A stretch of DNA of 64,000 nucleotides from Nocardia cyriacigeorgica (GTDB lineage: Bacteria; Actinomycetota; Actinomycetes; Mycobacteriales; Mycobacteriaceae). The stretch's first letter is position 1, and each line of letters starts with the position of its first letter. The notes beneath the pieces are model-generated. The model was not told the DNA's origin. It saw nothing but the letters and a program-made list of their open reading frames with translations, and did not search any database. The translations under genes were made by a program, and so were the position numbers. The stretch spans positions 659,279 through 723,278 of the forward strand of contig NZ_VBUT01000002.1 in assembly GCF_005863245.1 (NCBI RefSeq). The letters are read 5' to 3'. Positions 28,142 through 41,016 of the stretch are shown here, in pieces.

Positions 28142-28190
28142 TCATCGTCAGGGATTCGATGGGACGTCTGCGGGGAGGTCATGACCAACT

Positions 28191-28211
28191 GTCAGCGTGA
28201 TCGCCGCTGAC
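28191..28211 (+). terminator. Candidate hairpin after argR
   Basis: GTCAGCG and CGCTGAC form a perfect 7-bp stem around a 7-base loop, 50 bp after argR in the 185-bp gap to the hsdR stop. There is no U tract. It may end the arg operon, and it marks the left edge of the island. Confidence 0.45.
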
Positions 28212-28326
28212 GAATGGAACTGAACTGGCTGTTGGCTGACATTGCGTGCCCTGAAACGTACGTGAACAGACCTGATCGAGCACTTGCCCGACCTGGTTGC
28301 AGATCGCGCCGCGACCTGTCATTGCC

Positions 28327-31300
28327 CTATCCGCTGGCCGCATGCTGCTCGGCCGCATCTGGTAATGCAGTGGTGCGAATGTGCTTGACCACCGCGACAA
28401 TCCGGTCGACCTCCTCGTCGCTGAAGATGTCCTCCGGTCCCGTCGGCGCCACCGATTTGAACGGCGGCTCATAAAGGGCGCCCACGTCGATCACACCGTT
28501 CTTGGTGATGTAGTCGATGAGCAATTTGAGGAAATGCAGCTGGTTGGCGGTGAGGGTGCGGCCGGTGAGGAACTCGTCGAAGGCGTCAGTAGCCGTGGTT
28601 GAATCGAGGCCGGTGAGTGAGCGCAGGAACAGCCCGAGGCCGCCGTAGGAGGCGGCCGCGTGCTCGATGTCCTCGGCGGTGCCGAAGCCGTTGTCGAGGA
28701 AGACCTGTTCGAGCTCGGCCAGGTCTGCAGAGGTGATCTGCTTGTTGCGCAGCAGCTTCTGCACGGCGAGCATGTCTTCGTGGCTGCGCAGGTACGTGCG
28801 CACCTTCGACTCGAAACGCGCCATACCCTTGCCGCCGCCCGGCAGCACAGCCATCTCGATGTCGGAAACCTCGCCGAGCTCGTCCCGGAAGTCGGTGTAG
28901 AGCGGGTTCTGGGCGTCCTTCGGCGGGATCGCCTTGACCAGCCCCCGCAACCGGCGGCGCATGGTCTCCAGCATCGGAACGGTGACGTCGTCCCACCAAG
29001 CATCCCCGGCGACGTCCTCGATGAACTCGTGACGCTGACGGATGGCGGTGATGTTGTTCAGACTGGGATTCAGCAGTGCCGAGGCGATCTCCTGGACCTT
29101 CTCCCGGAGCTTGTCGAAGGTGGTGTCGCCGGTGAGCTGGGCCAGTTGCAAGCGCAGTGCGAGCAGATCGAAGCGTTTGGCGGCCGGGCTCGGATCGTCG
29201 TCGCTGAACTGCGTGGGCAGCCCGGCCAGGTTGCTGACCTCCATCCGGACCTCGGGTGTGACGATGTCCCAGTTGCGGCGTTCGGCGAACTTCTCTACGT
29301 GCGGCAGTTCCTTACGCACTTCGATGTTCTGGGTGTTCATGCTTGCCACTTCCACCCACAGCCGTTCGGCGAGTTGCCAGCGCACATCTGGAAGGCTGGC
29401 CGGTTCCCCGGCCGGGACCTCCGCGGGTCGCTCACCGGGTGGCTGGAGCTTATCGATGTCGCGCAGCAGGTCCGCGCGGGCTTCGAACAGCCTTTCACTC
29501 ATCGACGCCTGCGTGCGGCCCTCGGCGGTGGGCAGGTCCTGGTTGAAATATTCGATGTTCTGGCACAGGTCGAACACCAGGAACCGCTGCTTGTCCTGGT
29601 TCGGTGCGTACAGGTCCGGGCACAGCCGGGTGCCGCGACCGATCATCTGCCAATACTTCGAACTCGTCCGCACCGCCTTGGCGAACACCAGGTTCGCGAC
29701 CGCGGGAACATCGAGCCCGGTGTCGAGCATGTCGACCGAGACCGCGATATGCGGTGCCTTGGCAGGGTTTTCGAACTTGTCGATCAGGCTCTGCGCGTGG
29801 CTGACGCTGTGGGTGATCATCTCGATGAAATCGCCGGGCAGGTCGGGGTAGAGCACCCGGAACCGCTGCACGATCAACTCGGCGTGCCGGTTGTTGCGGG
29901 CGAAGATGATCGTCTTGCCGATGCGTTCGCCGTCGGCGACCCGATCGCCCTGTTCCATGAGCACCAGCAGCATCTGGTCGATGGTGTCGTGATTGAACAG
30001 GAACTTGTTGAGCGCGTGCGCGTCGACACTATCCGGGATGTCGGCGTCCTCGCGCCATTCGAGGTCTTCCCAATATTCCTTCTCCTCGTCGGAGAGCTCG
30101 GCGTAGCGGATGCCGGTGCGCAGGAACTTCAACGGCACCGATTTCGCCACCGGCGGCACCAGATAGCCCTCGGCGACGGCTTGTTCCAGGTCGTAGACAT
30201 CCGTCGGCACCCCTTCTTCCAGATGGAACAGCCGGTAGGTATTGCGGTCGATCTCGTTCTTCGGTGTCGCGGTCAAACCCACCAGCAGGGAGTCGAAGTG
30301 CTCGAAGATCGCCCCGTATTTCTGATACACCGAGCGGTGCGCCTCGTCGATGATCACCAGATCGAAGTATCCGGGTCCGAACGGGCGCTGTTTGGTGTCA
30401 TCGATCTGGTTGATGAGGTTCAGCATCGTCGGGTACGTGGACACGTAGACGCGCGCGTTGGCGTCCTTGTCGGTGAGCAGGTTCACCGTCGGCACGCTCG
30501 GCAGATGCGTCTTGAACGCATTCGTCGCCTGCGACACCAGCACCTGCCGGTCGGCCAGGAACAGCACCCGCTTCACCCAGCCCGCCCGGATCAGCTGATC
30601 CACCAGCGCGATCACCGTGCGGGTCTTACCCGTCCCGGTGGCCATCACCAGCAGCGCTTGCCGCTGCTTATCCTTCTCGAAGGCGTGGTTGATGCGCCCG
30701 ATGGCGCGCTTCTGGTAGTGCCTGCCCGCAATCGCCTCGTTGATCGGTTCGGTGGACAGGCTCTTGCGCTTGGCCCGGCGCTGAACGAGCGTGCGCAGTT
30801 GGTCTTTGGTGTAGAAGCCCTGCACCGGCCGGGGCGGGTAGAAATCGTCATCCCAGATCTGGGTCTGGTGGCCGTTGGTGTAGAAGATGACCGGCCGCTG
30901 CCCGTGCTCGCGCTCCAGCGCATCCGCATACAGCGACGCCTGGTACTTGCCGGATTCCACACTCTTCGATGTCTGCTTGGCTTCCACCACCGCCAGCGGT
31001 TTGCCATTGTCGTCCCACAGCACGTAATCGGCTCTGCCCTTGCCGCTGGGCGTCGGCATTCCGCTGACCGGATACTCGCGGTCGTCGGGCCCCGACAACG
31101 TCCACCCTGCCTCGAGCAACAACAGGTCGATGTAGTTCGTGCGGGTCTCGGCCTCGTTGTAATCGTGGTGATCCGGCACCGTGGCATTGGCCGCTTTCGC
31201 CGCCTTTACCGCGGCCCGCAGCCGCTTGACCTCGTCGTCGAGTTCCTTGCGCTGCCGCCGCTCCGCCGCCAGCTCCGCCTGCTGCGCGGCGAACTCGTCG

Positions 31301-31791
31301 GCCATCTGCCGGATCTCGGCCTGCTTCTTGCGCCGGACCTCCGCCGGCACCGGCCGCGGAATCAGCGAGGTATCGAACCGCTGCCCATCGAACGGCTTAC
31401 CCGCCTCGGTGCGCGCATACGTGCGCCCCAGCCAATACAGCACATGAAACAGCTCCGCCACGGTACTCACCGCATCCTGCGCGGGAATCTCGGTGCTGCG
31501 GTGCACGGCGATATTCCCGCGCCGCCGCACCACATCCATCTTCGTGACGATCGCCGACCCCGCCACCTGCGTCAGCGTCGGCTCATTGATTCTGGCGCTC
31601 AGATCATCCCGGTACGGCATGCGCAGCGCATCATCGGCTTTGAACAGCCAATTCAACGCCAACTCCAGCGCCCGCCGCGCGAAGAAGCACGCCACCCGCG
31701 GATCACCGACCGCGCTACGCTCCGCCCTGACGGCCTCGCCGTGCAGCTCCGGCCACTCGGCCTGCAGGAAGTCGAAGTTGCTCTCGGTCAC
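28327..31791 (-). CDS. hsdR: Type I restriction enzyme, R subunit (DUF4145-nuclease-helicase)
   Basis: This 1154-residue protein is the ATP-driven translocase and nuclease of a type I system. Domains: DUF4145 at about 10-130 (FFARRALELALNWLFKADDA), a charged coiled coil at about 150-195, the HsdR nuclease core (ADYVLWDDNGKPLAVVEAKQ, with D and ExK), Walker A MATGTGKTRT (about 381), DEAHRS (about 483), the SAT-like LVGLTATP, helicase C motif VSVDMLDTGLDVPAVANLVF, and MIGRGTRLCPDL. The start is GTG 31791, with GGGGAGGG 8 bases upstream. It is the third gene of the hsdM-hsdS-hsdR operon, 14 bp after hsdS. All catalytic motifs look intact. Confidence 0.96.
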   Translation of the reverse strand: MTESNFDFLQAEWPELHGEAVRAERSAVGDPRVACFFARRALELALNWLFKADDALRMPYRDDLSARINEPTLTQVAGSAIVTKMDVVRRRGNIAVHRSTEIPAQDAVSTVAELFHVLYWLGRTYARTEAGKPFDGQRFDTSLIPRPVPAEVRRKKQAEIRQMADEFAAQQAELAAERRQRKELDDEVKRLRAAVKAAKAANATVPDHHDYNEAETRTNYIDLLLLEAGWTLSGPDDREYPVSGMPTPSGKGRADYVLWDDNGKPLAVVEAKQTSKSVESGKYQASLYADALEREHGQRPVIFYTNGHQTQIWDDDFYPPRPVQGFYTKDQLRTLVQRRAKRKSLSTEPINEAIAGRHYQKRAIGRINHAFEKDKQRQALLVMATGTGKTRTVIALVDQLIRAGWVKRVLFLADRQVLVSQATNAFKTHLPSVPTVNLLTDKDANARVYVSTYPTMLNLINQIDDTKQRPFGPGYFDLVIIDEAHRSVYQKYGAIFEHFDSLLVGLTATPKNEIDRNTYRLFHLEEGVPTDVYDLEQAVAEGYLVPPVAKSVPLKFLRTGIRYAELSDEEKEYWEDLEWREDADIPDSVDAHALNKFLFNHDTIDQMLLVLMEQGDRVADGERIGKTIIFARNNRHAELIVQRFRVLYPDLPGDFIEMITHSVSHAQSLIDKFENPAKAPHIAVSVDMLDTGLDVPAVANLVFAKAVRTSSKYWQMIGRGTRLCPDLYAPNQDKQRFLVFDLCQNIEYFNQDLPTAEGRTQASMSERLFEARADLLRDIDKLQPPGERPAEVPAGEPASLPDVRWQLAERLWVEVASMNTQNIEVRKELPHVEKFAERRNWDIVTPEVRMEVSNLAGLPTQFSDDDPSPAAKRFDLLALRLQLAQLTGDTTFDKLREKVQEIASALLNPSLNNITAIRQRHEFIEDVAGDAWWDDVTVPMLETMRRRLRGLVKAIPPKDAQNPLYTDFRDELGEVSDIEMAVLPGGGKGMARFESKVRTYLRSHEDMLAVQKLLRNKQITSADLAELEQVFLDNGFGTAEDIEHAAASYGGLGLFLRSLTGLDSTTATDAFDEFLTGRTLTANQLHFLKLLIDYITKNGVIDVGALYEPPFKSVAPTGPEDIFSDEEVDRIVAVVKHIRTTALPDAAEQHAASG

Positions 31792-31805
31792 GAAAATCCC
31801 TCCCC

Positions 31806-32981
31806 TTACAGATCTTTCAGGTCATCTTGCCAGAGTTCGCCGCGGAAGGCGCGGGACTGAAGGGAGGAGAAGAGGGTGTCGAGATGGGCGAGGTGTGATC
31901 GGTGGGTAGCTTCCTGGGAACGGAGCTGACGCAATCGGTGGGCAAAAATTCTTTGTAGCTCATATGGCGGTTGCGGAACACGAATCGACTTGAGCTCTTT
32001 TGCGTTGATATTCGCCATGCCGACAATGGATTTACACATCGCTCGAAGCACTCGCTTCGAGTAACTCGTGTTCAAGAAAGAGGAAATGTAGTCCGGGTCG
32101 TTATCGCAATTTGCTCGAAGGCGGATGAGGTATCCAGCGTACGCCATCGGCGCGTTGCCTGTGAACACTGCTGTCTTTCCGACGAGTTCTGCGCTATTTG
32201 TTCGGTTGAACAGGATATCGCCGGCTCTGACCATATAGCGTTCCGGCGGTTCAGACGCCAGGTACTTCAGGTCGCGAAGATCCATTCTTCCGGCGTATGT
32301 GATGTTATTCATTCGTAGAACAGGGATCGGTCCGCTCGGCGCAGCCTTCTCCGCGGTCCCGTATGTGGCGGACTCCGTGAGGTCGCCGATGGTCCTGACA
32401 GGCCAGGCTGACGGTTTTGATGGATCCCCGAACATGTCGAGGAAGATGGATTGGGCGAGCTCGTCGAGGAGGGCGATGGACTTCCGCCGCTTCTCCCGCA
32501 GCGCATCCACATGATCCAGCACCTCCGCAATCCGCCGCTGCACAGCAATCGGGGGGACCGGGAGCGTGAATTTGCCGAGTTCTGCCGGATTGATCCTAGG
32601 TAAGTTGACGCCGGTCGCCCGCGCGTTTGCCTTGGAAATCATTGATGGCTGCGATAAGAAGTGGCAGAGATAGTTTCGGTCTATAGCAGGACTCGGCTCG
32701 ATCGGCAGGATATCTGTGCTGCATACTCCTCCGAAATTCGGCCGCGCTATCTTCGCTAGATACGGGCGGAGTTTTCCATACAGGATGTGGTCAGCGGTGA
32801 ACTGATACTTCTGGCTCTCGATCCCGGCTGCCTCGGCCGTCGATACGTTGATGATCCGACCACCGCTCTCGATGTTTTCGAGGCCGACGTACTTCGTATC
32901 ACCGTCGATGTCGCGCGGATTGATTCCAATTCGGAGGATGGTCGCAACATGCGCGAGTTCCTTGATAGGCCACGCACTCAT
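31806..32981 (-). CDS. hsdS: Type I restriction-modification specificity subunit
   Basis: A 391-residue HsdS with two target-recognition domains (about 1-140 and 195-335), each followed by a conserved helix: LPVPPIAVQRRIAEVLDHVD and VPQPPYELQRIFAHRLRQLR. The half-site target cannot be read from sequence. Base composition is clearly lower in GC than the neighbours, especially 31900-32350, as usual for exchangeable recognition domains. ATG 32981 overlaps the hsdM stop by 4 bp. Confidence 0.95.
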   Translation of the reverse strand: MSAWPIKELAHVATILRIGINPRDIDGDTKYVGLENIESGGRIINVSTAEAAGIESQKYQFTADHILYGKLRPYLAKIARPNFGGVCSTDILPIEPSPAIDRNYLCHFLSQPSMISKANARATGVNLPRINPAELGKFTLPVPPIAVQRRIAEVLDHVDALREKRRKSIALLDELAQSIFLDMFGDPSKPSAWPVRTIGDLTESATYGTAEKAAPSGPIPVLRMNNITYAGRMDLRDLKYLASEPPERYMVRAGDILFNRTNSAELVGKTAVFTGNAPMAYAGYLIRLRANCDNDPDYISSFLNTSYSKRVLRAMCKSIVGMANINAKELKSIRVPQPPYELQRIFAHRLRQLRSQEATHRSHLAHLDTLFSSLQSRAFRGELWQDDLKDL

Positions 32982-34486
32982 CCCAGCATCCCCTTCAACT
33001 CCGACATCCCCCGCTGAATCTCCCCCTCGATCACTTCCAACTCCTCGATGATCTCCAACGGCGGGCGATGCTCCACTTCCTCGTGCACGACCTCCTTGTA
33101 TCGGTTGAGGCTCAGGTCGTAATCCTGCGCCGCGATATCCGCTTTCGGCACACAGAAACTCTGCTCGGTCCGCGCACGTTCACGTTCGGTAGTGGTGCGG
33201 TGCGACCAGCGGGCCAGCACGTCGGGCAGGTTGTTATTCACTTGCTCGTCCTCGGTGAGAGCAGCAGCGACACCGAGCTTTTCGTCCGGAAGCAGTGGGT
33301 TGCGCTTGTCGTCGAGGCTGAATCCGTCGGCGGTGACGTCGTAGAACCACACGTGGTCGGTTTCGTCATCCTTGGTGAAGAACAGGATCGCCGTCGACAC
33401 TCCCGCGTACGGTTTGAACACCCCGGAGGGCAGTTTCACCACGGCATCGAGGCCGTGGTCCTCGACCAGGATCTTGCGTAGTTCCTTGTGCGCCTTGGTC
33501 GATCCGAACAGCACACCGTCGGGCACGATGACGGCCGCCTTGCCGCCGGTTTTCAGCAGGCGCAGGAACAACGCCAGGAACAGCAGTTCTGTCTTCTTCG
33601 TCTTCACCACCTGGAGCAGGCCCTTCGCGGTGGTCTCGTAGTCCAGGCTGCCGGCGAAGGGCGGGTTGGCGAGGATCATCGAATAGCGGCCCTCTTCGCC
33701 CGATACCGATTCGGCGAGCGAATCCCGGTAGCGGATATCGGGGTGCTCGATCTGGTGCATGAGCATGTTCATGCTGGCGATGCGCAGCATGGTGGAGTCG
33801 AAGTCGAAGCCGTGGAACATGCTGCGGTGGAAGTGATCCTGCTGCGCGGAGTCGAGCAGGGCGTCGCGGTGGGTGCGCTGAATGTATTCGGCGGCGCCGA
33901 CCAGGAAGCCGGCGGTACCGCAGGCCGGGTCGCAGATCTCGTCGCTGGGGCCGGGCGCCATCATCGCCACCATCAGGTCGATGATGTGGCGCGGGGTGCG
34001 GAACTGGCCGTTCTGGCCGGCTGTCGCGATCTTGGACAGCATGTACTCGTACAGATCGCCCTTGACGTCGCCGCCCTCGGCCAGCGGCAGTTCGTCGAGC
34101 ATATCGACGGCTTTGGTGAGCAGGCTCGCCGTCGGGATGGTGAACCGGGCGTCCTTCATGTGCTCGCCGTAGGTGGATTCCTCGCCGCCGAGCAGGCGCA
34201 ACCAGGGGAAGACGTCATCGCGAACGGTCCGCAGCAGCTGCTCCGGTGCGAGCTCGCGGAATTTCGACCACCGCAGGGACTCGGTGTCGGCGTCGAAGAT
34301 CGGGTTCTCGATCGGCCGCCCACTGCGGTTGGCTTTGCGTTCCTTGCCGGTCTGCAGGTCGTCGAGGCGCTTGAGGAACATCAGGTAGGTGATCTGCTCG
34401 ATCACCTCCAGCGGATTCGAGATGCCACCCGACCAGAACGCATCCCACAACCGGTCGATCTTGCTCCGCAGTTCCCCAGTGATCAT
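32978..34486 (-). CDS. hsdM: Type I restriction-modification DNA methyltransferase
   Basis: This 502-residue N6-adenine methyltransferase starts MITGELRSKIDRLWDAFW, typical of HsdM. It has the N-terminal helical domain (YLMFLKRLDDLQ), SAM-binding motif I DPACGTAGFLVGAAEYIQ (about 188), the catalytic NPPF (ILANPPFAGS, about 275), and AVIVPDGVLFGSTKAHKELR. It modifies adenine in the half sites read by HsdS. ATG 34486 is the family start, but the frame is open upstream without a stop all the way into the DUF4254 region, so automated calls may make a false fusion. First gene of hsdMSR. Confidence 0.95.
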   Translation of the reverse strand: MITGELRSKIDRLWDAFWSGGISNPLEVIEQITYLMFLKRLDDLQTGKERKANRSGRPIENPIFDADTESLRWSKFRELAPEQLLRTVRDDVFPWLRLLGGEESTYGEHMKDARFTIPTASLLTKAVDMLDELPLAEGGDVKGDLYEYMLSKIATAGQNGQFRTPRHIIDLMVAMMAPGPSDEICDPACGTAGFLVGAAEYIQRTHRDALLDSAQQDHFHRSMFHGFDFDSTMLRIASMNMLMHQIEHPDIRYRDSLAESVSGEEGRYSMILANPPFAGSLDYETTAKGLLQVVKTKKTELLFLALFLRLLKTGGKAAVIVPDGVLFGSTKAHKELRKILVEDHGLDAVVKLPSGVFKPYAGVSTAILFFTKDDETDHVWFYDVTADGFSLDDKRNPLLPDEKLGVAAALTEDEQVNNNLPDVLARWSHRTTTERERARTEQSFCVPKADIAAQDYDLSLNRYKEVVHEEVEHRPPLEIIEELEVIEGEIQRGMSELKGMLG

Positions 34487-34625
34487 GGCGGGAACGTTAG
34501 CCGAGGGCGCCGACAGATTTCGCGGGAGTGAGCTATTCGGAGTGCATCGAACGATTCCCAGCGCAGCATCGGCCGAAGCTGCGATGCCGCGGGCCGGGCA
34601 CCGCCGATGCGGAATCGACTCGTCG

Positions 34626-35041
34626 CTACCGGAAGATTGCGGGCGTAGTGGTGGATGCGAGCTGGTCGGCGAGGTCCTGATACATGACGCGTCGCCCAGC
34701 TCGGTCAGTCGCACTGTGGCGTCATACACCAGTGCATCCGGTGCATGGGCCAGCGTGATGTAGGCCTCGACGGTGAGCGCGGCGATATCGTCGACCAACC
34801 GGCCCACCCCGTGCATCCCGCCGGAACCGGGTCGGGCACTCACCGCGACCCAGAGGTCGATCGCGACACGAAGGTGGCTGCGGTGCCGGTCCAGTGCGGC
34901 CGAACCTGCCGCCGGTGTCTGTTCGCGTGCCTGGTGGATCGCGGCCAGCTCGCCCGCGGCATCCAGGATCGGATGGTCGCCGGCCGGCAGGCCACGGCAG
35001 GCGGCGAGCAGCAGTTCCTTGCGGGGCAGGGCGATGTTCAC
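34626..35041 (-). pseudogene. DUF4254-family protein, second copy, frameshifted near the 3' end
   Basis: From GTG 35041 (overlapping the stop of the upstream paralogue by 4 bp) the frame reads VNIALPRKELLLAACRGLP and aligns well with its neighbour (ELL-x2-RG...DHP...H...AIDLWV...ID-I...). It ends its homology at RLTELGDA (about 34690). There the match shifts frame: YQDLADQLAS and a TAG at 34626 lie in another frame. Removing the five bases TCATG would restore GDA-YQDL and a normal end. Unshifted, the frame continues in phase into hsdM. It could be a real break, a sequencing error or a natural variant end. Confidence 0.65.
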
Positions 35042-35484
35042 CAGTGGTCTCCAAGGATCGGCAAACGGCGTTGTCCGCGAACGACTTCGGTGGCGCAATC
35101 GGTGTATCCGGTGACGAGTTCGGCGAGCCGATGCCAGGCGCTGTGCACGCGCGGGTCGGCGGGCGGGACGGTCATCAGCAGCCGATAGGCGTGGACCTGG
35201 GCGCCGGCGATTCGGTCGATCATGGTGCCCGCGGATTCGGTGTGCAGGGGCGCGCCGGGGCGCGGGACGGGTAGCCGGGCGGTCAGCCACAAGTCGATGG
35301 CCGCGATGAGCCCGGTGCGCCGCCACAGCAAATCCGCCGGGTCGGCGGTGGCATCGAGTTCGCTGCGGTGCGCCGCGCCCAGCCGGCTCGCCAGCCGCGC
35401 GACCGGATGGTCCGGCACATGGTGCCCGCGGATAGCGGCGAGCAGCTCGTCGCCGCCGACGAAAATCGCCGGTTCGGGACGCAT
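35038..35484 (-). CDS. DUF4254-family protein
   Basis: This 148-residue protein starts MRPEPAIFVGGDELLAAIRG. Further conserved parts are DHPVARLASRLGAAHRSELD, RTGLIAAIDLWLTARLPVPR, ESAGTMIDRIAGAQVHAYRL, AWHRLAELVTGYTDCATEVV. I assign DUF4254 from the H-x4-R, IDxWL and ID-R-A pattern; the function of the family is unknown. It is helical and cytosolic. It sits between an unknown gene (2 bp upstream) and a second DUF4254 copy (4-bp overlap), so the three form an operon pointing toward hsdM. Confidence 0.75.
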   Translation of the reverse strand: MRPEPAIFVGGDELLAAIRGHHVPDHPVARLASRLGAAHRSELDATADPADLLWRRTGLIAAIDLWLTARLPVPRPGAPLHTESAGTMIDRIAGAQVHAYRLLMTVPPADPRVHSAWHRLAELVTGYTDCATEVVRGQRRLPILGDHW

Positions 35485-35486
35485 CG

Positions 35487-35981
35487 TCAATACCCGCACG
35501 GCCGGGTGGACGCCCACATCTCCAGGACCTCGCGGGCCGCAGCGAGCACCGTCGACCGGCGCGGCAACGTCAGCGGGCCGGGGCTGGGAGCGCACGCCCA
35601 GTAACGGTCGAACTCGATCTCCGGCACCGGCAGGACAATCCTGGCCCCGGCCGGCATCGTCGCGACCCCGCGCCGGCTCACCGCATCGAGCGTGCGCGCC
35701 CCGACCCGGCCGTCCGGCGAGACCAGGAATATCCAATGCGAGTTCGCCTTCGACACCCCGATGACCGGCACCGACGGCTCATCCCGCAGTGCCTGCCGGA
35801 CACTCCAAGCGAGCCGAGGGGGAATCTGCACCGCCGCGAGCGACTGGGTCGTGTACAGGGCCGCATGCCCGTCGACGGGTTCGGCGGGCAGGCCGAAGTC
35901 GCGACGGTAGCGGAGCACGGCTGTGCGGATGTGGTTGTCGGGGGAGGGGTGGTCGAGCGTGGAAGTCGTCATCTGCGTCAC
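35487..35981 (-). CDS. Unknown protein, first gene of the DUF4254 operon
   Basis: A 164-residue soluble alpha/beta protein I do not recognise. Visible segments are HIRTAVLRYRRDFGLPAEPV, LYTTQSLAAVQIPPRLAWSV, VIGVSKANSHWIFLVSPDGR and PVPEIEFDRYWACAPSPG. There are no membrane segments. GTG 35981 or ATG 35972 could start it; neither has a strong ribosome site. It ends 2 bp before the first DUF4254 gene, so the products probably work together. It is divergent from the XRE/DUF397 pair across 196 bp that contain a 14-bp palindrome. Confidence 0.7.
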   Translation of the reverse strand: MTQMTTSTLDHPSPDNHIRTAVLRYRRDFGLPAEPVDGHAALYTTQSLAAVQIPPRLAWSVRQALRDEPSVPVIGVSKANSHWIFLVSPDGRVGARTLDAVSRRGVATMPAGARIVLPVPEIEFDRYWACAPSPGPLTLPRRSTVLAAAREVLEMWASTRPCGY

Positions 35982-36053
35982 CGCTCTGGCAGGTCGTCTA
36001 CCTGCCTGATCGAAGGTATGTACCTAGTCGCGGAAGAGCATAGCCATGATTGA

Positions 36054-36067
36054 CTGTATATATACAG
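36054..36067. promoter_or_regulatory. AT-rich 14-bp palindrome in the divergent promoter region
   Basis: CTGTATATATACAG is a perfect palindrome in an otherwise GC-rich genome. The plus strand has TTGACT overlapping its left arm (36050-36055), so it sits over a likely promoter between the DUF4254 operon and the XRE gene. It is a reasonable operator for the adjacent XRE regulator. Confidence 0.55.
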
Positions 36068-36177
36068 AAATGAATGTAGATGGCTGTAATCGGCTCGGCT
36101 GTATCGAAGTGCGATGCTCTGGCCGCGTGCTGTGCGAGGGTGTCCGATGTAGCTGACGCACAGATTGGGAGGATGAA

Positions 36178-37032
36178 GTGCCGGATCGTCGCTCTGATCC
36201 CGCCGCGCTGCGGTTCTTGATTGGACATGACCTGCGAGTGTCGCGTGAACGCGCGGGGATGAAGCAGGCGGAGGCGGCGCGGGTACTGGGCTGCAATCAG
36301 CCCAAGATCAACTATCTGGAGACCGGCAAAACGCAACAGAAGCCGCATGAAACGACGGCGCTGCTCAAGGCGTACGGCGCAAATATCGAGCACATCGACC
36401 GAATCGCTTCGCTGGCCGGGCAAGCGGACCGGGCGACCTGGTGGGCGCCATTCTCCGATGTCCTTCCGGACTGGTTCAGGACGTTCGTCGGGTTGGAAGG
36501 CTTGGCCACGAGCCAGTTTGTCTACCGGTCGAAGACCATCCCCGGGCAGATGCAGACAGAGGAGTACGCGAGGACCCTGTTGGAAGGCAGCCTGCAAATC
36601 GCGTTGATGGACGCGCCGCAGGCGGTTCGGAGCCGGATGGCGCGGCAGCGACTGGCCGATGATGACCATCCCCTGCATATACGGGCCGTCATCGAGGAAT
36701 CGGTGCTCGATCGGCTGGTCGGCGGACCGAGAGTGATGCTGGGTCAACTTCGGCACCTGCTCGACCTCATGCAGCGCGACAACGTCGAACTGCGGATCAT
36801 GCCGACTCGTGTCGCCGTCCATGACGGTTTGGACGACGAGTTCACCCTGCTGGACTTCGACGCGGCGCAAGGTATCGGCTACTTGGAGCACGCCGCAGGC
36901 GCGCTGTACGTGCAGGATCAGGACCAGGTACGGCTCTATAGAATGATGGCGGACCGTCTGTGTAGCGCCGCGCTATCGACGTCCGAGTCCATAGATGCGA
37001 TCACCGAGCGCATCGACAAGCTACATGAATGA
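36178..37032 (+). CDS. Scr1-family XRE transcriptional regulator (HTH + DUF5753)
   Basis: This 284-residue regulator has an N-terminal helix-turn-helix (RERAGMKQAEAARVLGCNQP, KINYLETGKT, about 20-50) followed by DUF5753 (WFRTFVGLEGLATSQFVYRS, TIPGQMQTEEYARTLLEG, VIEESVLDRLVGGPRVMLGQ). In Streptomyces and Nocardia such genes are paired with a small DUF397 protein, as here. GTG 36178 has GGGAGG ten bases upstream. Some pairs (Scr1/Scr2 and BldB/WhiJ-like) act in development; others behave like toxin-antitoxin or defence regulators. The DUF397 gene begins 16 bp downstream. Confidence 0.93.
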   Translation: MPDRRSDPAALRFLIGHDLRVSRERAGMKQAEAARVLGCNQPKINYLETGKTQQKPHETTALLKAYGANIEHIDRIASLAGQADRATWWAPFSDVLPDWFRTFVGLEGLATSQFVYRSKTIPGQMQTEEYARTLLEGSLQIALMDAPQAVRSRMARQRLADDDHPLHIRAVIEESVLDRLVGGPRVMLGQLRHLLDLMQRDNVELRIMPTRVAVHDGLDDEFTLLDFDAAQGIGYLEHAAGALYVQDQDQVRLYRMMADRLCSAALSTSESIDAITERIDKLHE

Positions 37033-37048
37033 GTTCGGAGTGCCCTGA

Positions 37049-37408
37049 ATGAAGACCACAGCTCTCGCGTGGCGTAAGTCCAGCTACAGTGGGACCAACG
37101 GGGGCGAGTGCGTAGAGGTTGCCTACACCAGCGAATCCGTACTCATCCGCGACACCAAATACCTGCGCAACCCCGCGAACGACCCCGCGGCCCAGCCCGT
37201 CATCGCGCTGCCGGCCTCCGCGTGGCCGGCGTTCCTCGCCGCGGCCTGCGCCCACGCCTCGCACGCCATTGCCGGCGCCCCGGCGATCACTCGTCACCGC
37301 GACGGCTCGGTCACGCTCACCGGGTCCGCCGCCACACTGCACTACACCGCGGGGGAGTGGCGCGCCTTCCTGGCGGGTGTCCGTGACGGAGAGTTCGTCG
37401 CGGTCTGA
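37049..37408 (+). CDS. DUF397 protein with a duplicated C-terminal half
   Basis: A 119-residue protein. WRKSSYSGTNGGECVEVAYT and VLIRDTKYLRNP are the DUF397 signature, followed by IALPASAWPAFLAAACA. A second copy of the back half follows: ITRHRDGSVTLTGSAATLHY then EWRAFLAGVRDGEF. Ordinary DUF397 proteins are 60-80 residues with only one [ST]xxxWxAFL segment, so this one is extended. DUF397 proteins bind their partner XRE regulator, here the gene immediately upstream. Confidence 0.92.
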   Translation: MKTTALAWRKSSYSGTNGGECVEVAYTSESVLIRDTKYLRNPANDPAAQPVIALPASAWPAFLAAACAHASHAIAGAPAITRHRDGSVTLTGSAATLHYTAGEWRAFLAGVRDGEFVAV

Positions 37409-37768
37409 CCTGCCGATGGGATCGGCGCCTTCCCGTTTTGGGGCTGCCGTACTCGCGCCGCATCATCGACGTGCCATGCGTCGTTGGACCCACCGTCGCG
37501 AATGGGCCGACTGCTAGGGGCCGGAAACGACGAAGCAGGCGTCGGACCGGGCGTCGCTGCCCTACGTCGTGGGCACCTCGGCGCCGCCACGAGGTCTCCG
37601 GTCGAGTCGGCTCAGTCTTGAAGTGTTGCGGCTGGGCCGCCAGGAGTGCTGCGGCGACGGCCCCGCTGCCGAAACTTCGTTGGTCCACAACAGGTTTCGG
37701 GCATTTGTCCAGTGTGAAGATGTGGATATCAGATGCGGTTTCTGCTGATTCTGGGGCGTTGCTTGGGA
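37409..37768. other. 360-bp intergenic stretch without a convincing gene
   Basis: Open frames here are short and Arg/Ser-rich, with no ribosome sites, repeats or similarity I can recognise. GC content falls toward the right end, where the promoter of the next gene lies. No tRNA or hairpin terminator of note was seen. Confidence 0.5.
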
Positions 37769-37774
37769 TAGAAT

Positions 37775-37790
37775 TCGAACATGGGTTCGA
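37775..37790 (+). promoter_or_regulatory. Perfect SOS (LexA) box over the DUF222-HNH start
   Basis: TCGAAC-ATGG-GTTCGA matches the actinobacterial LexA consensus TCGAAC-N4-GTTCGA exactly. The ATG is the start codon of the gene. TAGAAT at 37769-37774 is a good -10 box ending six bases before the ATG, so the mRNA is probably leaderless and LexA would cover the transcription start. Confidence 0.9.
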
Positions 37791-39268
37791 GTGGGGGAAT
37801 CGGCGAAGACAGTGCAGCAGCGGCACTGCATGCCGCCGTCACCGATCTACTCGACGAACCCCTCACACCAATCACCGATGATGGCGTCATTGGTCTGATG
37901 CGCGACGTGGAGCGCTGCACGCGAATGCTGACCATGGTCCGCCACCGCCTGCTCGCGGAAGCCTCCGACCGGTCCCTGCCCGCCCGTTATGGTTCGAAAT
38001 CGTTGAAACGCTTCCTGATGGAAACGCTGAACCTTGCCAGCGCCGACGCAGGCGCCCGCGTCCACCAAGCGCAATCGGTCGCATCCTTCCACGACATGGC
38101 CGGTGAACCGGTCGACCCGCGCCTGCCACATACCGCGCAAGCATTGACTGCGGGTGATATTTCCGCCGATCACGCTCGCGGTATCGCAGCAGTGATCAAC
38201 CGTGTCCCGCGTGGCGCGTCCGCCGATGACCGCGCTGCTGCCGAGGAGATCCTCACCGACTTCGCCCGCACCGGCTCCCCGGACGATATCGGCAAGGTCG
38301 GCGACAGAATCCTGGCCTACCTCGACCCCGACGGCCGCCTCACCACCGACCATGACCGAGCTCGCATGCGCGGCATCGTGATCGGCCGTCAACGCCCCGA
38401 CGGGATGAGCCCCATCCGCGGCGAGGTCGACCCCGTGCTGCGCGCCTTGCTGGATCCGTTGCTGGCCAAGTACGCCCGCCCGGGTATGTGCAATCCGGAC
38501 GACCCCACCAGCCCCGGCGACACCGATTCGGTGGACCCGGCGGTGCTTGCCGAGGCCGCCGCCCGCGACCACCGCACACCCGCCCAACGCAACCATGATG
38601 CACTCAAAGCGCTCCTGGCATCCGGCGTCATCAGCGAACAGCTCGGCACCCACCGCGGAGTCCCGGTCGCAACGATTGTGACGATGTCGATTGATGATGT
38701 GGAACGTGAAGCCGGAGTCGCGACCACCGCCACCGGCGGCACCGTACCGATCCGGGACGCCCTGGAACTGGCCGGGAGGTCACAACCCTGGCTGGCGGTG
38801 TTCGACCACGCCGGGCTCCCACTACATCTCGGGCGGATGAAGCGGCTCGCGTCCCGGGATCAGCGTTTGGCGTTGATCGCCGCCCTGAAGGGCTGCTCCC
38901 GCCCTGGATGCAACGCGCCCGCGAGCCTGTGCGCGGTCCACCACGTTCTCGACTACCGCAAGAACGGCAGCACCGACATCGAGAATCTCACCCTCGCCTG
39001 CGATGCCTGCCACGCGTTGATCCACGATGGCCCCGGCGGATGGAAAACCCGGATCGAAGGGCCTCGCTCCCCGTATGCGGGGCGTACCGCGTGGATCGCC
39101 CCACCGCATATCGACCCGCAACAGAAACCACGAATCAACCACCGCCACAATGCCAGCGAACTACTCGCTCGAGCACTCTCACGTATCCACCTGCGCCACG
39201 AACGCGACCGCGAACAACACCGACAATGGCGACTCCAACAAACGCAACCCCAGCCAACCGCGGCATGA
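37781..39268 (+). CDS. DUF222 / HNH endonuclease (13E12 repeat family)
   Basis: This 495-residue protein has a long N-terminal DUF222 helical domain (MRDVERCTRMLTMVRHRLLA, ALTAGDISADHARGIAAVIN) and a C-terminal HNH nuclease motif: CSRPGCNAPASLCAVHHVLD, NGSTDIENLTLACDACHALI, H. Two Cys pairs would bind zinc, and HH plus N plus H form the metal site; CDACHALIH replaces the commoner CxxHHRLIH. Members are abundant in Mycobacterium and Nocardia; several are LexA-controlled, and the box here predicts DNA-damage induction. The start is fixed by the promoter and box. The biological role, mobile or repair, is unknown. Confidence 0.93.
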   Translation: MGSSGGIGEDSAAAALHAAVTDLLDEPLTPITDDGVIGLMRDVERCTRMLTMVRHRLLAEASDRSLPARYGSKSLKRFLMETLNLASADAGARVHQAQSVASFHDMAGEPVDPRLPHTAQALTAGDISADHARGIAAVINRVPRGASADDRAAAEEILTDFARTGSPDDIGKVGDRILAYLDPDGRLTTDHDRARMRGIVIGRQRPDGMSPIRGEVDPVLRALLDPLLAKYARPGMCNPDDPTSPGDTDSVDPAVLAEAAARDHRTPAQRNHDALKALLASGVISEQLGTHRGVPVATIVTMSIDDVEREAGVATTATGGTVPIRDALELAGRSQPWLAVFDHAGLPLHLGRMKRLASRDQRLALIAALKGCSRPGCNAPASLCAVHHVLDYRKNGSTDIENLTLACDACHALIHDGPGGWKTRIEGPRSPYAGRTAWIAPPHIDPQQKPRINHRHNASELLARALSRIHLRHERDREQHRQWRLQQTQPQPTAA

Positions 39269-39461
39269 TCGGACGATCGCCTGGGCGGGCGGAGCCGCCG
39301 GGCGGCGCCGGCGGCGGATTGCCGCATGAATAGTCGGCCGAGACATCACTGCACCGGCCCATACAGTCGCCCGGCTGACGTCGCGGTGTGGCGTCTCGGC
39401 TGACACGGGTTGGTAATCTGCGTGGCGCAGAGGCGGTTTGAGAAATCGGGGGATTCTTGGC

Positions 39462-40058
39462 ATGGCTGGATGGTGGAGAAGACGCTCAGACAAGAAATCA
39501 TGGCATTTTCCACCCGGCTACTCCAGGAAGGAGAAGGCCAGGATTATCGCTCAGTTCGCGGAGTTCGATCGCGACCGCCGGCAAGCCGAGGCCGACGCTC
39601 TGGCCAATCCCTATCGTCCCGACTCGAGCGACGATCCCGCCATCGAAGCCGCCCTGTGCGCGGCGCCGCGGGAAGCGTGGGATCGGCTGTGGTCTGCGGT
39701 AGACCAACTCCTCGTGGAGGACCAGGCGTCGCACGCGACTATGCGGTTCGAGAACACTGACGGCTCGCTGTGCATGCCGCACGTCGACTACAGCAAGGCG
39801 GTCGATCGGGTCGTCGAGTCGCTGTACGAGGTCGATGCGATCGTGAGCTTCCCGTGGATGAAGTGGAAGCTGCGCAGCGTGTACCCGGGTGGTCGGGGCT
39901 TGGAAGCAGCCCCGGTCGCCGATGCCGCCCGCGTGCTCACCGCCGTCGTGCGTGCCGAGCGTTTCAACGACGGCGTCATCCTTGCGGCGCTGGGCGACGG
40001 CACGCTGCAGGCGGCACTGAACAGGCTGCGCACCTGGTACGAGGATCAGCCGGCTTGA
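39462..40058 (+). CDS. DUF6508-like hypothetical protein
   Basis: A 198-residue protein starting MAGWWRRRSDKKSWHFPPGY. The C-terminal half (FPWMKWKLRSVYPGGRGLEA, VLTAVVRAERFNDGVILAAL, DGTLQAALNRL) matches the pattern I know from DUF6508: W-x-G, then an R-x-ERF-x-(D/E)G and a GxLxxxLxRL end. No function is known; DUF6508 genes are often in accessory DNA. ATG 39462 has GGGGGA nine bases upstream. It stands alone in the island. Confidence 0.75.
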   Translation: MAGWWRRRSDKKSWHFPPGYSRKEKARIIAQFAEFDRDRRQAEADALANPYRPDSSDDPAIEAALCAAPREAWDRLWSAVDQLLVEDQASHATMRFENTDGSLCMPHVDYSKAVDRVVESLYEVDAIVSFPWMKWKLRSVYPGGRGLEAAPVADAARVLTAVVRAERFNDGVILAALGDGTLQAALNRLRTWYEDQPA

Positions 40059-40195
40059 TGCCGCCGATCGGTATCACCACAGTCACGGTGCCGCATCAGT
40101 GGGGTGACGGCATCGCCGCAAGTCAGCCTGGGGCAGAGGCCGAGACCTAGGGTCGGGACTGGCCGGATCGTCCTGCGAGAAGGAGGCGTCGCGTT

Positions 40196-40522
40196 ATGCC
40201 GAAGTACTTGTGGCGGGTCAGTTACACCCAGGAGGGGGCGTCCGGGTTGCTCGCGCAGGGCGGCAGTGCCCGCCGGGCGGCGATCACGGAGATGGTGGAG
40301 AGTGTGGGCGGGCATGTCGCGGCCTGCTATTTCGCGTTCGGGGAGGATGATCTGTTCGTGATCGGTGACGCGCCCGACGAGGTGTCGGCCGCTGCGCTCG
40401 CCATTCGCACCGCGGCGTCGGGTGCCGCGATCTCGCATACGGTGCCGCTACTCACTCCCGAGCAGGTCGATGAGGCGGTCGCGCGCGAGGTCACGTACAC
40501 GCCACCGATCGCAGAGGGGTAG
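40196..40522 (+). CDS. GYD-domain protein
   Basis: A 108-residue ferredoxin-like protein: MPKYLWRVSYTQEGASGLLA, then SARRAAITEMVESVGGHVAA, YFAFGEDDLFVIGDAPD, the GYD family pattern in which GYD is replaced by GEDD. Function unknown; possibly a small-ligand sensor or oligomeric enzyme. A clear ribosome site (AGAAGGAGG) precedes ATG 40196. Monocistronic. Confidence 0.88.
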   Translation: MPKYLWRVSYTQEGASGLLAQGGSARRAAITEMVESVGGHVAACYFAFGEDDLFVIGDAPDEVSAAALAIRTAASGAAISHTVPLLTPEQVDEAVAREVTYTPPIAEG

Positions 40523-40604
40523 CGAAACAGCGGGCCGCTACCGAGTGCGAGCGGCCGTGGTTGTGCGGCGCGGTGATCCTGTGGATGCCGCGCCGCATCG
40601 GTGT

Positions 40605-40784
40605 TCAGTAGTTGCGCCCGGGCGGATACTCGGAGAAGAACTGCTGCAACAACGGCGTCGCCACGTCGAGTCCGTGCTTGGCGAGGCCGAGGGCGGCGTT
40701 GCCGAGGTTGATCACGACGAAACCGATCAGGTCGCGGTTCTGTTCGGCCAGGTCGCGGAGTGGTTCGATGATGTTGGTGAACAT
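40605..40784 (-). CDS. Small amphipathic protein, 59 residues
   Basis: MFTNIIEPLRDLAEQNRDLI then GFVVINLGNAALGLAKHGLD, VATPLLQQFFSEYP. A central hydrophobic stretch could be a weak membrane segment or amphipathic helix. GAAGGA lies nine bases before ATG 40784, which supports translation. Not recognised. It faces argG across a region holding the ArgR box. Confidence 0.6.
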   Translation of the reverse strand: MFTNIIEPLRDLAEQNRDLIGFVVINLGNAALGLAKHGLDVATPLLQQFFSEYPPGRNY

Positions 40785-40903
40785 GGTGTCGGTCCTTCGG
40801 CATGGATGCGCATGGACACGGCCTACATTTCCACAGCGGAGAGGCGGGGCCAAGGCTCTTCGGGCAGAATCTGCGCAGGCAGCGGCCATCGCAACCCCGG
40901 TTA

Positions 40904-40934
40904 TGAATGAGATTGCATCATCATGCATAATCAT
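40904..40934. promoter_or_regulatory. ArgR box before argG
   Basis: A 31-bp element matching 27 of 31 positions of the box before argC, with dyad halves ATGAGATTGCAT and ATGCATAATCAT. CATAAT at 40926-40931 is the probable -10 box, which would place the transcription start about 80 bases before the argG ATG, so argG has a leader whereas argC does not. Confidence 0.85.
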
Positions 40935-41016
40935 TTCCAGGCGCGAGCCGAACCGGCGACCAGCATGCTGCCCCGAGCAGCCGCGCAGACCCACACAGAC
41001 TTAGGAGCACCAGATC

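Follow-up and report, generated by a model that had tools for sequence, protein, structure and literature searches.

A recurring Nocardia operon encoding a predicted degenerate primase-polymerase-fold protein and DUF4254 paralogues as a candidate target of WhiJ/BldB-type regulators

What is the role of a compact three-gene operon that faces a divergent regulatory gene pair on a 64,000-nucleotide stretch of contig NZ_VBUT01000002.1 (the window)? The window is part of a Nocardia genome of 6.5 Mb, and the closest named homologues of the first gene of the operon, referred to as gene A, belong to Nocardia cyriacigeorgica. In this study, we examined genes A, B and C together with their neighborhood and their relatives in other genomes. 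The gene order, the divergent regulator, the recurrence of the arrangement, the fixed order of the two DUF4254 groups, the missing residues at the aligned catalytic positions of A and the frame break in C are direct observations. We propose, with a probability of roughly 55%, that A-B-C is an effector operon under control of a WhiJ-type XRE protein and its DUF397 partner and that it provides a degenerate primase-polymerase (Prim-Pol) and a pair of DUF4254 proteins.

All three genes are encoded on the minus strand. Gene A (35487..35981) starts with a GTG codon at 35981, although an ATG at 35972 is also possible, and encodes a basic protein of 164 amino acids with an isoelectric point of 9.6. 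Following a gap of 2 bp, gene B (35038..35484) encodes 148 amino acids and overlaps by 4 bp with gene C (34626..35041), which starts with the GTG at 35041. The three-gene operon claimed in the preliminary description is thereby borne out, and so is the XRE/DUF397 pair opposite to it, which is divergent from A. The XRE gene (36178..37032, plus strand) encodes a WhiJ-type protein with Pfam matches to DUF5753 (9e-51) and HTH_31 (5e-13), and the gene directly downstream (37049..37408, plus strand) encodes a BldB-type DUF397 protein (2.1e-22). A and the XRE gene are separated by an intergenic region (35982..36177) that contains a perfect palindrome of 14 bp at 36054-36067, which is suggestive of an operator. 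A HATPase family, which would mark an AbaA partner, was not found among the Pfam and NCBIfam matches of A, B and C.

Does this arrangement recur? Gene A was found in 148 of 148 searched genomes of the genus, including that of the window, which itself holds nine full-length A places and one partial A. We compared 30 A loci with 1.5-kb flanks, consisting of the 29 best matches of the genus search and the locus in the window. A DUF4254 gene lies directly downstream of A in 21 of them. Thirteen have a divergent XRE-DUF5753 gene upstream of A, and none has one there in the orientation of A. Furthermore, a DUF4254 scan of named genomes yielded 76 loci, all from Nocardia, which hold 24 A loci. Upstream and divergent of A, these named loci carry XRE-DUF5753 genes in 11 cases and XRE-TPR genes in six, with none detected in seven, and an XRE gene upstream in the same orientation was found in 0 of 24. 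DUF4254 genes do in many cases stand singly, as would be expected of genes without association (59 B-only matches, 76 named loci); still, the unit of A, DUF4254 and XRE recurs, and the co-occurrence counts across Nocardia agree with the unit and the link to XRE/DUF397 genes that had been claimed.

A+B pairs and lone DUF4254 genes in similar chromosomal contexts, without a detected XRE gene, were observed at L093, L103, L117, L120, L132 and many B-only loci, and are apparently core copies. The neighbors of several of these core-like A+B or DUF4254 loci look like genes that we take to belong to sulfur amino-acid metabolism. Such pairs would fit an explanation in which Nocardia uses A and DUF4254 for housekeeping or as structural proteins, and in which accessory copies came to lie near XRE genes through expanded families sharing insertion sites. 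The size of these families in the genome of the window (16 DUF4254 places, 33 DUF5753 matches and 33 DUF397 matches) also speaks for coincidence. However, the upstream XRE gene is divergent in 17 of the 17 named loci that have one, chance is exceeded in the genome of the window, and a similar layout occurs outside Nocardia without DUF4254, so that we regard this explanation as quite improbable.

Within the order, at least 36 of 298 genomes contain homologues of A, and 29 of these 36 lie outside the genus; as 12 candidates per genome were scored, this is a lower bound. For 28 A homologues from 16 of the 29 matching genomes, genes within a reach of 1.5 kb were analyzed. A divergent XRE gene was found near nine of them and a same-strand XRE gene near two, with none detected for 17, while DUF4254 was found within 1.5 kb of 0 of 28. 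The regulator link of A thus reaches further than its DUF4254 link.

As to what the proteins are, A gave no match above a curated cut-off in Pfam or NCBIfam. The predicted structure of A resembles the Prim-Pol (archaeo-eukaryotic primase [AEP]) fold, and its ten best PDB entries represent two Prim-Pol proteins. This fold receives some support from a chain of profiles that leads from A to small PF09250 proteins and from these to Prim-Pol (94.1% and then 98.3% in hhalign). Concerning a tentative relation between A and PF09250, both profiles matched at 16 of the 28 A-homologue loci outside Nocardia. What weighs against the assignment is that a direct profile comparison of A with canonical Prim-Pol fails; PF09250 itself was matched by 0 of 22 A-family members. 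Small PF09250 proteins outside Nocardia also adjoin XRE genes, divergently at L148 (by sequence reading) and L154 (by profile), and at L151 on the same strand, after an XRE-DUF397 pair.

The catalytic motifs of Prim-Pol enzymes are Asp-x-Asp/Glu, His and Asp. We placed the corresponding positions of A through hhalign and by eye and scored 55 members. At motif I (residues 52 and 54 of the window protein), Asp, Glu or His is present in two and zero members, respectively. Motif II (residue 83 or 84, uncertain by one) is His in 0 of 55, with Trp at 83 in 54, and motif III (residue 105) is acidic in two. The catalytic positions, as aligned, are lost across these 55 members, and A appears to be a pseudo-Prim-Pol, i.e., a protein that keeps the predicted Prim-Pol fold but apparently no longer works as an enzyme.

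The two claimed DUF4254 paralogues were confirmed by different means. B belongs to DUF4254 (PF14063) according to Pfam, with 42.2 bits at a gathering cut-off of 27; C was not matched by the Pfam model even at an E value of 1 and was assigned by a profile built in this analysis, with homology over 34688-35035. The profile search of all three products that had been proposed as a check gave a Pfam family for B and for neither of the others. PF14063 was matched (E up to 1) by 18 of the 19 members of our DUF4254 working alignment. B was modelled as a helical bundle (predicted local distance difference test score, 93.8) without a convincing PDB match, and the same fold is predicted for C by kinship. 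In a DUF4254 tree of 103 rows and few columns, all 13 second-position genes, the group of C, form one group together with six lone genes (support 100/98); the 29 first-position genes, the group of B, are all placed outside it. B and C thus belong to separate DUF4254 groups in a fixed order, and the pair is likely old. One protein of 291 amino acids, P0040, holds A and B together, which hints at contact between them.

Gene C had been described as intact and ending at 34626, which did not hold. The interval 34626-35041 comprises 416 nucleotides, and the frame of its start codon has no stop there but stays open into the hsdM open reading frame (32978-35326). About 20 residues short of the end of the intact relatives, it leaves their reading frame. 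Since an intact C of 136 amino acids is present at the same locus in L073 (N. cyriacigeorgica NBRC 100375) and in L033 (close relative G013; L033:645-1052), C is frame-disrupted or misassembled in the window strain. The break is either a mutation or an assembly error, and suggests a module that is decaying, or working without C, in this strain.

Other copies of the operon are part of fuller cassettes. In 10 of the 24 named A loci, a small protein of about 90 to 100 amino acids with the motif WVVSYLPGRTL is encoded between the XRE gene and A (for example, L067:4092-4394); the one copy scanned had no Pfam match. In nine of the 24, the operon is followed by a nucleoside-hydrolase-like gene (PF01156), and all four cassette representatives scanned passed the Pfam cut-off, one of them barely. 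S-adenosyl methyltransferase genes were found in four of the 24 (PF04672 for the one scanned). The version in the window has neither the small protein nor the hydrolase; a fuller cassette is present in the same genome at C5 (L018). This genome has two PF01156 matches, and the hydrolase-like gene of that cassette is one of them. Using the numbering of the canonical enzyme of this genome, Asp 10 and His 263 are both replaced in five of 11 cassette hydrolases (L018, L067, L068, L069 and L071), and four others carry Ser at canonical Asp 4. Judged by their aligned residues, two former nucleotide-handling folds, A and the hydrolase, appear to lose catalysis within the cassette, which would point to binding or sensing.

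The operon abuts a type I restriction-modification (R-M) system, and the preliminary description had read the layout as that of an uncharacterised defence or plasmid-maintenance module. An R-M neighbor is indeed present, hsdM starting 139 bp beyond 34626. This neighborhood is not conserved: hsdM adjoins A in one of the 24 named loci, L073. In the window, argR and argG are 12.9 kb apart (28142-41016), with the operon inside, next to the R-M system; because argR lies within 1.5 kb of argG in seven of 14 other Nocardia loci (in one only at the edge), the stretch looks like a variable insertion. It also encodes a DUF222-HNH protein (37781-39268), a DUF222 gene adjoining the L073 locus too, and a DUF6508 protein (39438-40058). 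A place in such a stretch beside R-M genes, together with the patchy distribution of the accessory cassettes, would suit anti-phage or anti-plasmid defence, with A sensing foreign nucleic acid or replication intermediates, DUF4254 and the hydrolase-like protein as effector, and R-M genes as part of a defence island; a nucleotide-based conflict would likewise be consistent with the ancestry of a Prim-Pol and the fold of a nucleoside hydrolase. However, no PADLOC family matched A, B or C at an E value of 0.01. Among 67 neighboring proteins from 16 of the 24 named A loci, Cas7, Cas8c, PD-T4-6, mad, MkoA and PD-T7-3 were each matched by one and HmaC by two, and no defence family exceeded that number. 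The presence of the A family in all 148 searched genomes of the genus and A+B pairs with similar neighbors in several species also argue against defence. A defence or maintenance module tied to R-M genes finds no support here, and we consider a defence role unlikely.

A second alternative concerns the regulatory genes. In a type II toxin-antitoxin-like system, the XRE protein would be the antitoxin of DUF397, or A a toxin neutralized by B and C. The genes are compact and overlapping, and XRE-DUF397 pairs were once proposed as toxin-antitoxin systems, as stated in an excerpt of PMC2701414. This is very unlikely, as 0 of 14 such pairs of S. coelicolor behaved accordingly in the experiments excerpted from PMC10364602, and A has neither catalytic residues at the Prim-Pol positions nor an NCBIfam match.

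Under the preferred reading of A-B-C as a regulated effector operon, the XRE protein would bind the A-XRE intergenic region and turn on A-B-C by analogy to WhiJ9 and iosA of Streptomyces venezuelae, and the DUF397 partner may modulate this action. With its dead Prim-Pol fold, the basic protein A would bind nucleic acid or a nucleotide instead of carrying out synthesis, and A, B and C may act as one complex. By analogy to IosA and AbaA6, the output could be a brake on growth or development. In fuller cassettes, the nucleoside-hydrolase-like protein, often without its active-site residues, would join. A broader idea, which we offer as a tentative possibility, is that actinomycetes possess regulated pseudoenzyme cassettes. 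In these, a WhiJ-type XRE/DUF397 or XRE-TPR switch would activate a dead primase-polymerase that reads nucleic acid or nucleotides, along with a DUF4254 pair and, in fuller versions, a nucleoside hydrolase that is often dead; the former nucleotide enzymes would then act as sensors to stop growth or development.

To our knowledge, few direct targets of WhiJ/BldB-type genes, of which a single genome may have dozens, have been identified. With this locus, such regulators have a candidate target operon that recurs and includes a recognizable fold; DUF4254 is given a likely regulator as well as a partner, and two families of unknown function obtain a first testable role. In addition, the R-M neighbor is removed from the unit as a false lead.

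Compared with known Prim-Pol/AEP proteins (PF09250; pRN1 ORF904, NrS-1 and CAPP), A is alike in its predicted fold and through the sequence chain via small PF09250 proteins, but it is a standalone protein of about 150 amino acids that neither keeps the catalytic Asp/His positions nor matches PF09250. The inosine-uridine (IU) nucleoside hydrolases (PF01156) join the fuller cassettes and are absent from the window operon, with active-site Asp and His lost in five of 11 cassette copies. In DUF4254 (PF14063), two groups, represented by B above the cut-off and by C through a profile, are kept downstream of A as a pair in fixed order; a listing in the excerpt of PMC9425974 links the flavobacterial DUF4254 family flavo9.02618 to RfaF. 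The closest counterparts are the whiJ-bldB-abaA/iosA loci of Streptomyces, which, according to excerpts of PMC10294661 and PMC4255298, likewise combine XRE and DUF397 genes with an adjacent gene and an intergenic control region, occur in many paralogous copies per genome and vary in partner family (AbaA or IosA). The excerpted 2013 review gave no direct WhiJ target as known at the time (PMC4255298). In S. venezuelae, the intergenic region of iosA and whiJ9 is bound by WhiJ9, and the activation of iosA in a bldB mutant depends on this protein; overexpressing iosA and abaA6 together reproduces the phenotype of that mutant, and iosA is a non-AbaA partner, abaA being nearby for five of ten paralogues (excerpt of PMC10294661). 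The Nocardia operon differs in that the partner is a predicted Prim-Pol-fold protein with two DUF4254 proteins instead of AbaA, and its position matches the slot occupied by iosA in the whiJ-bldB layout.
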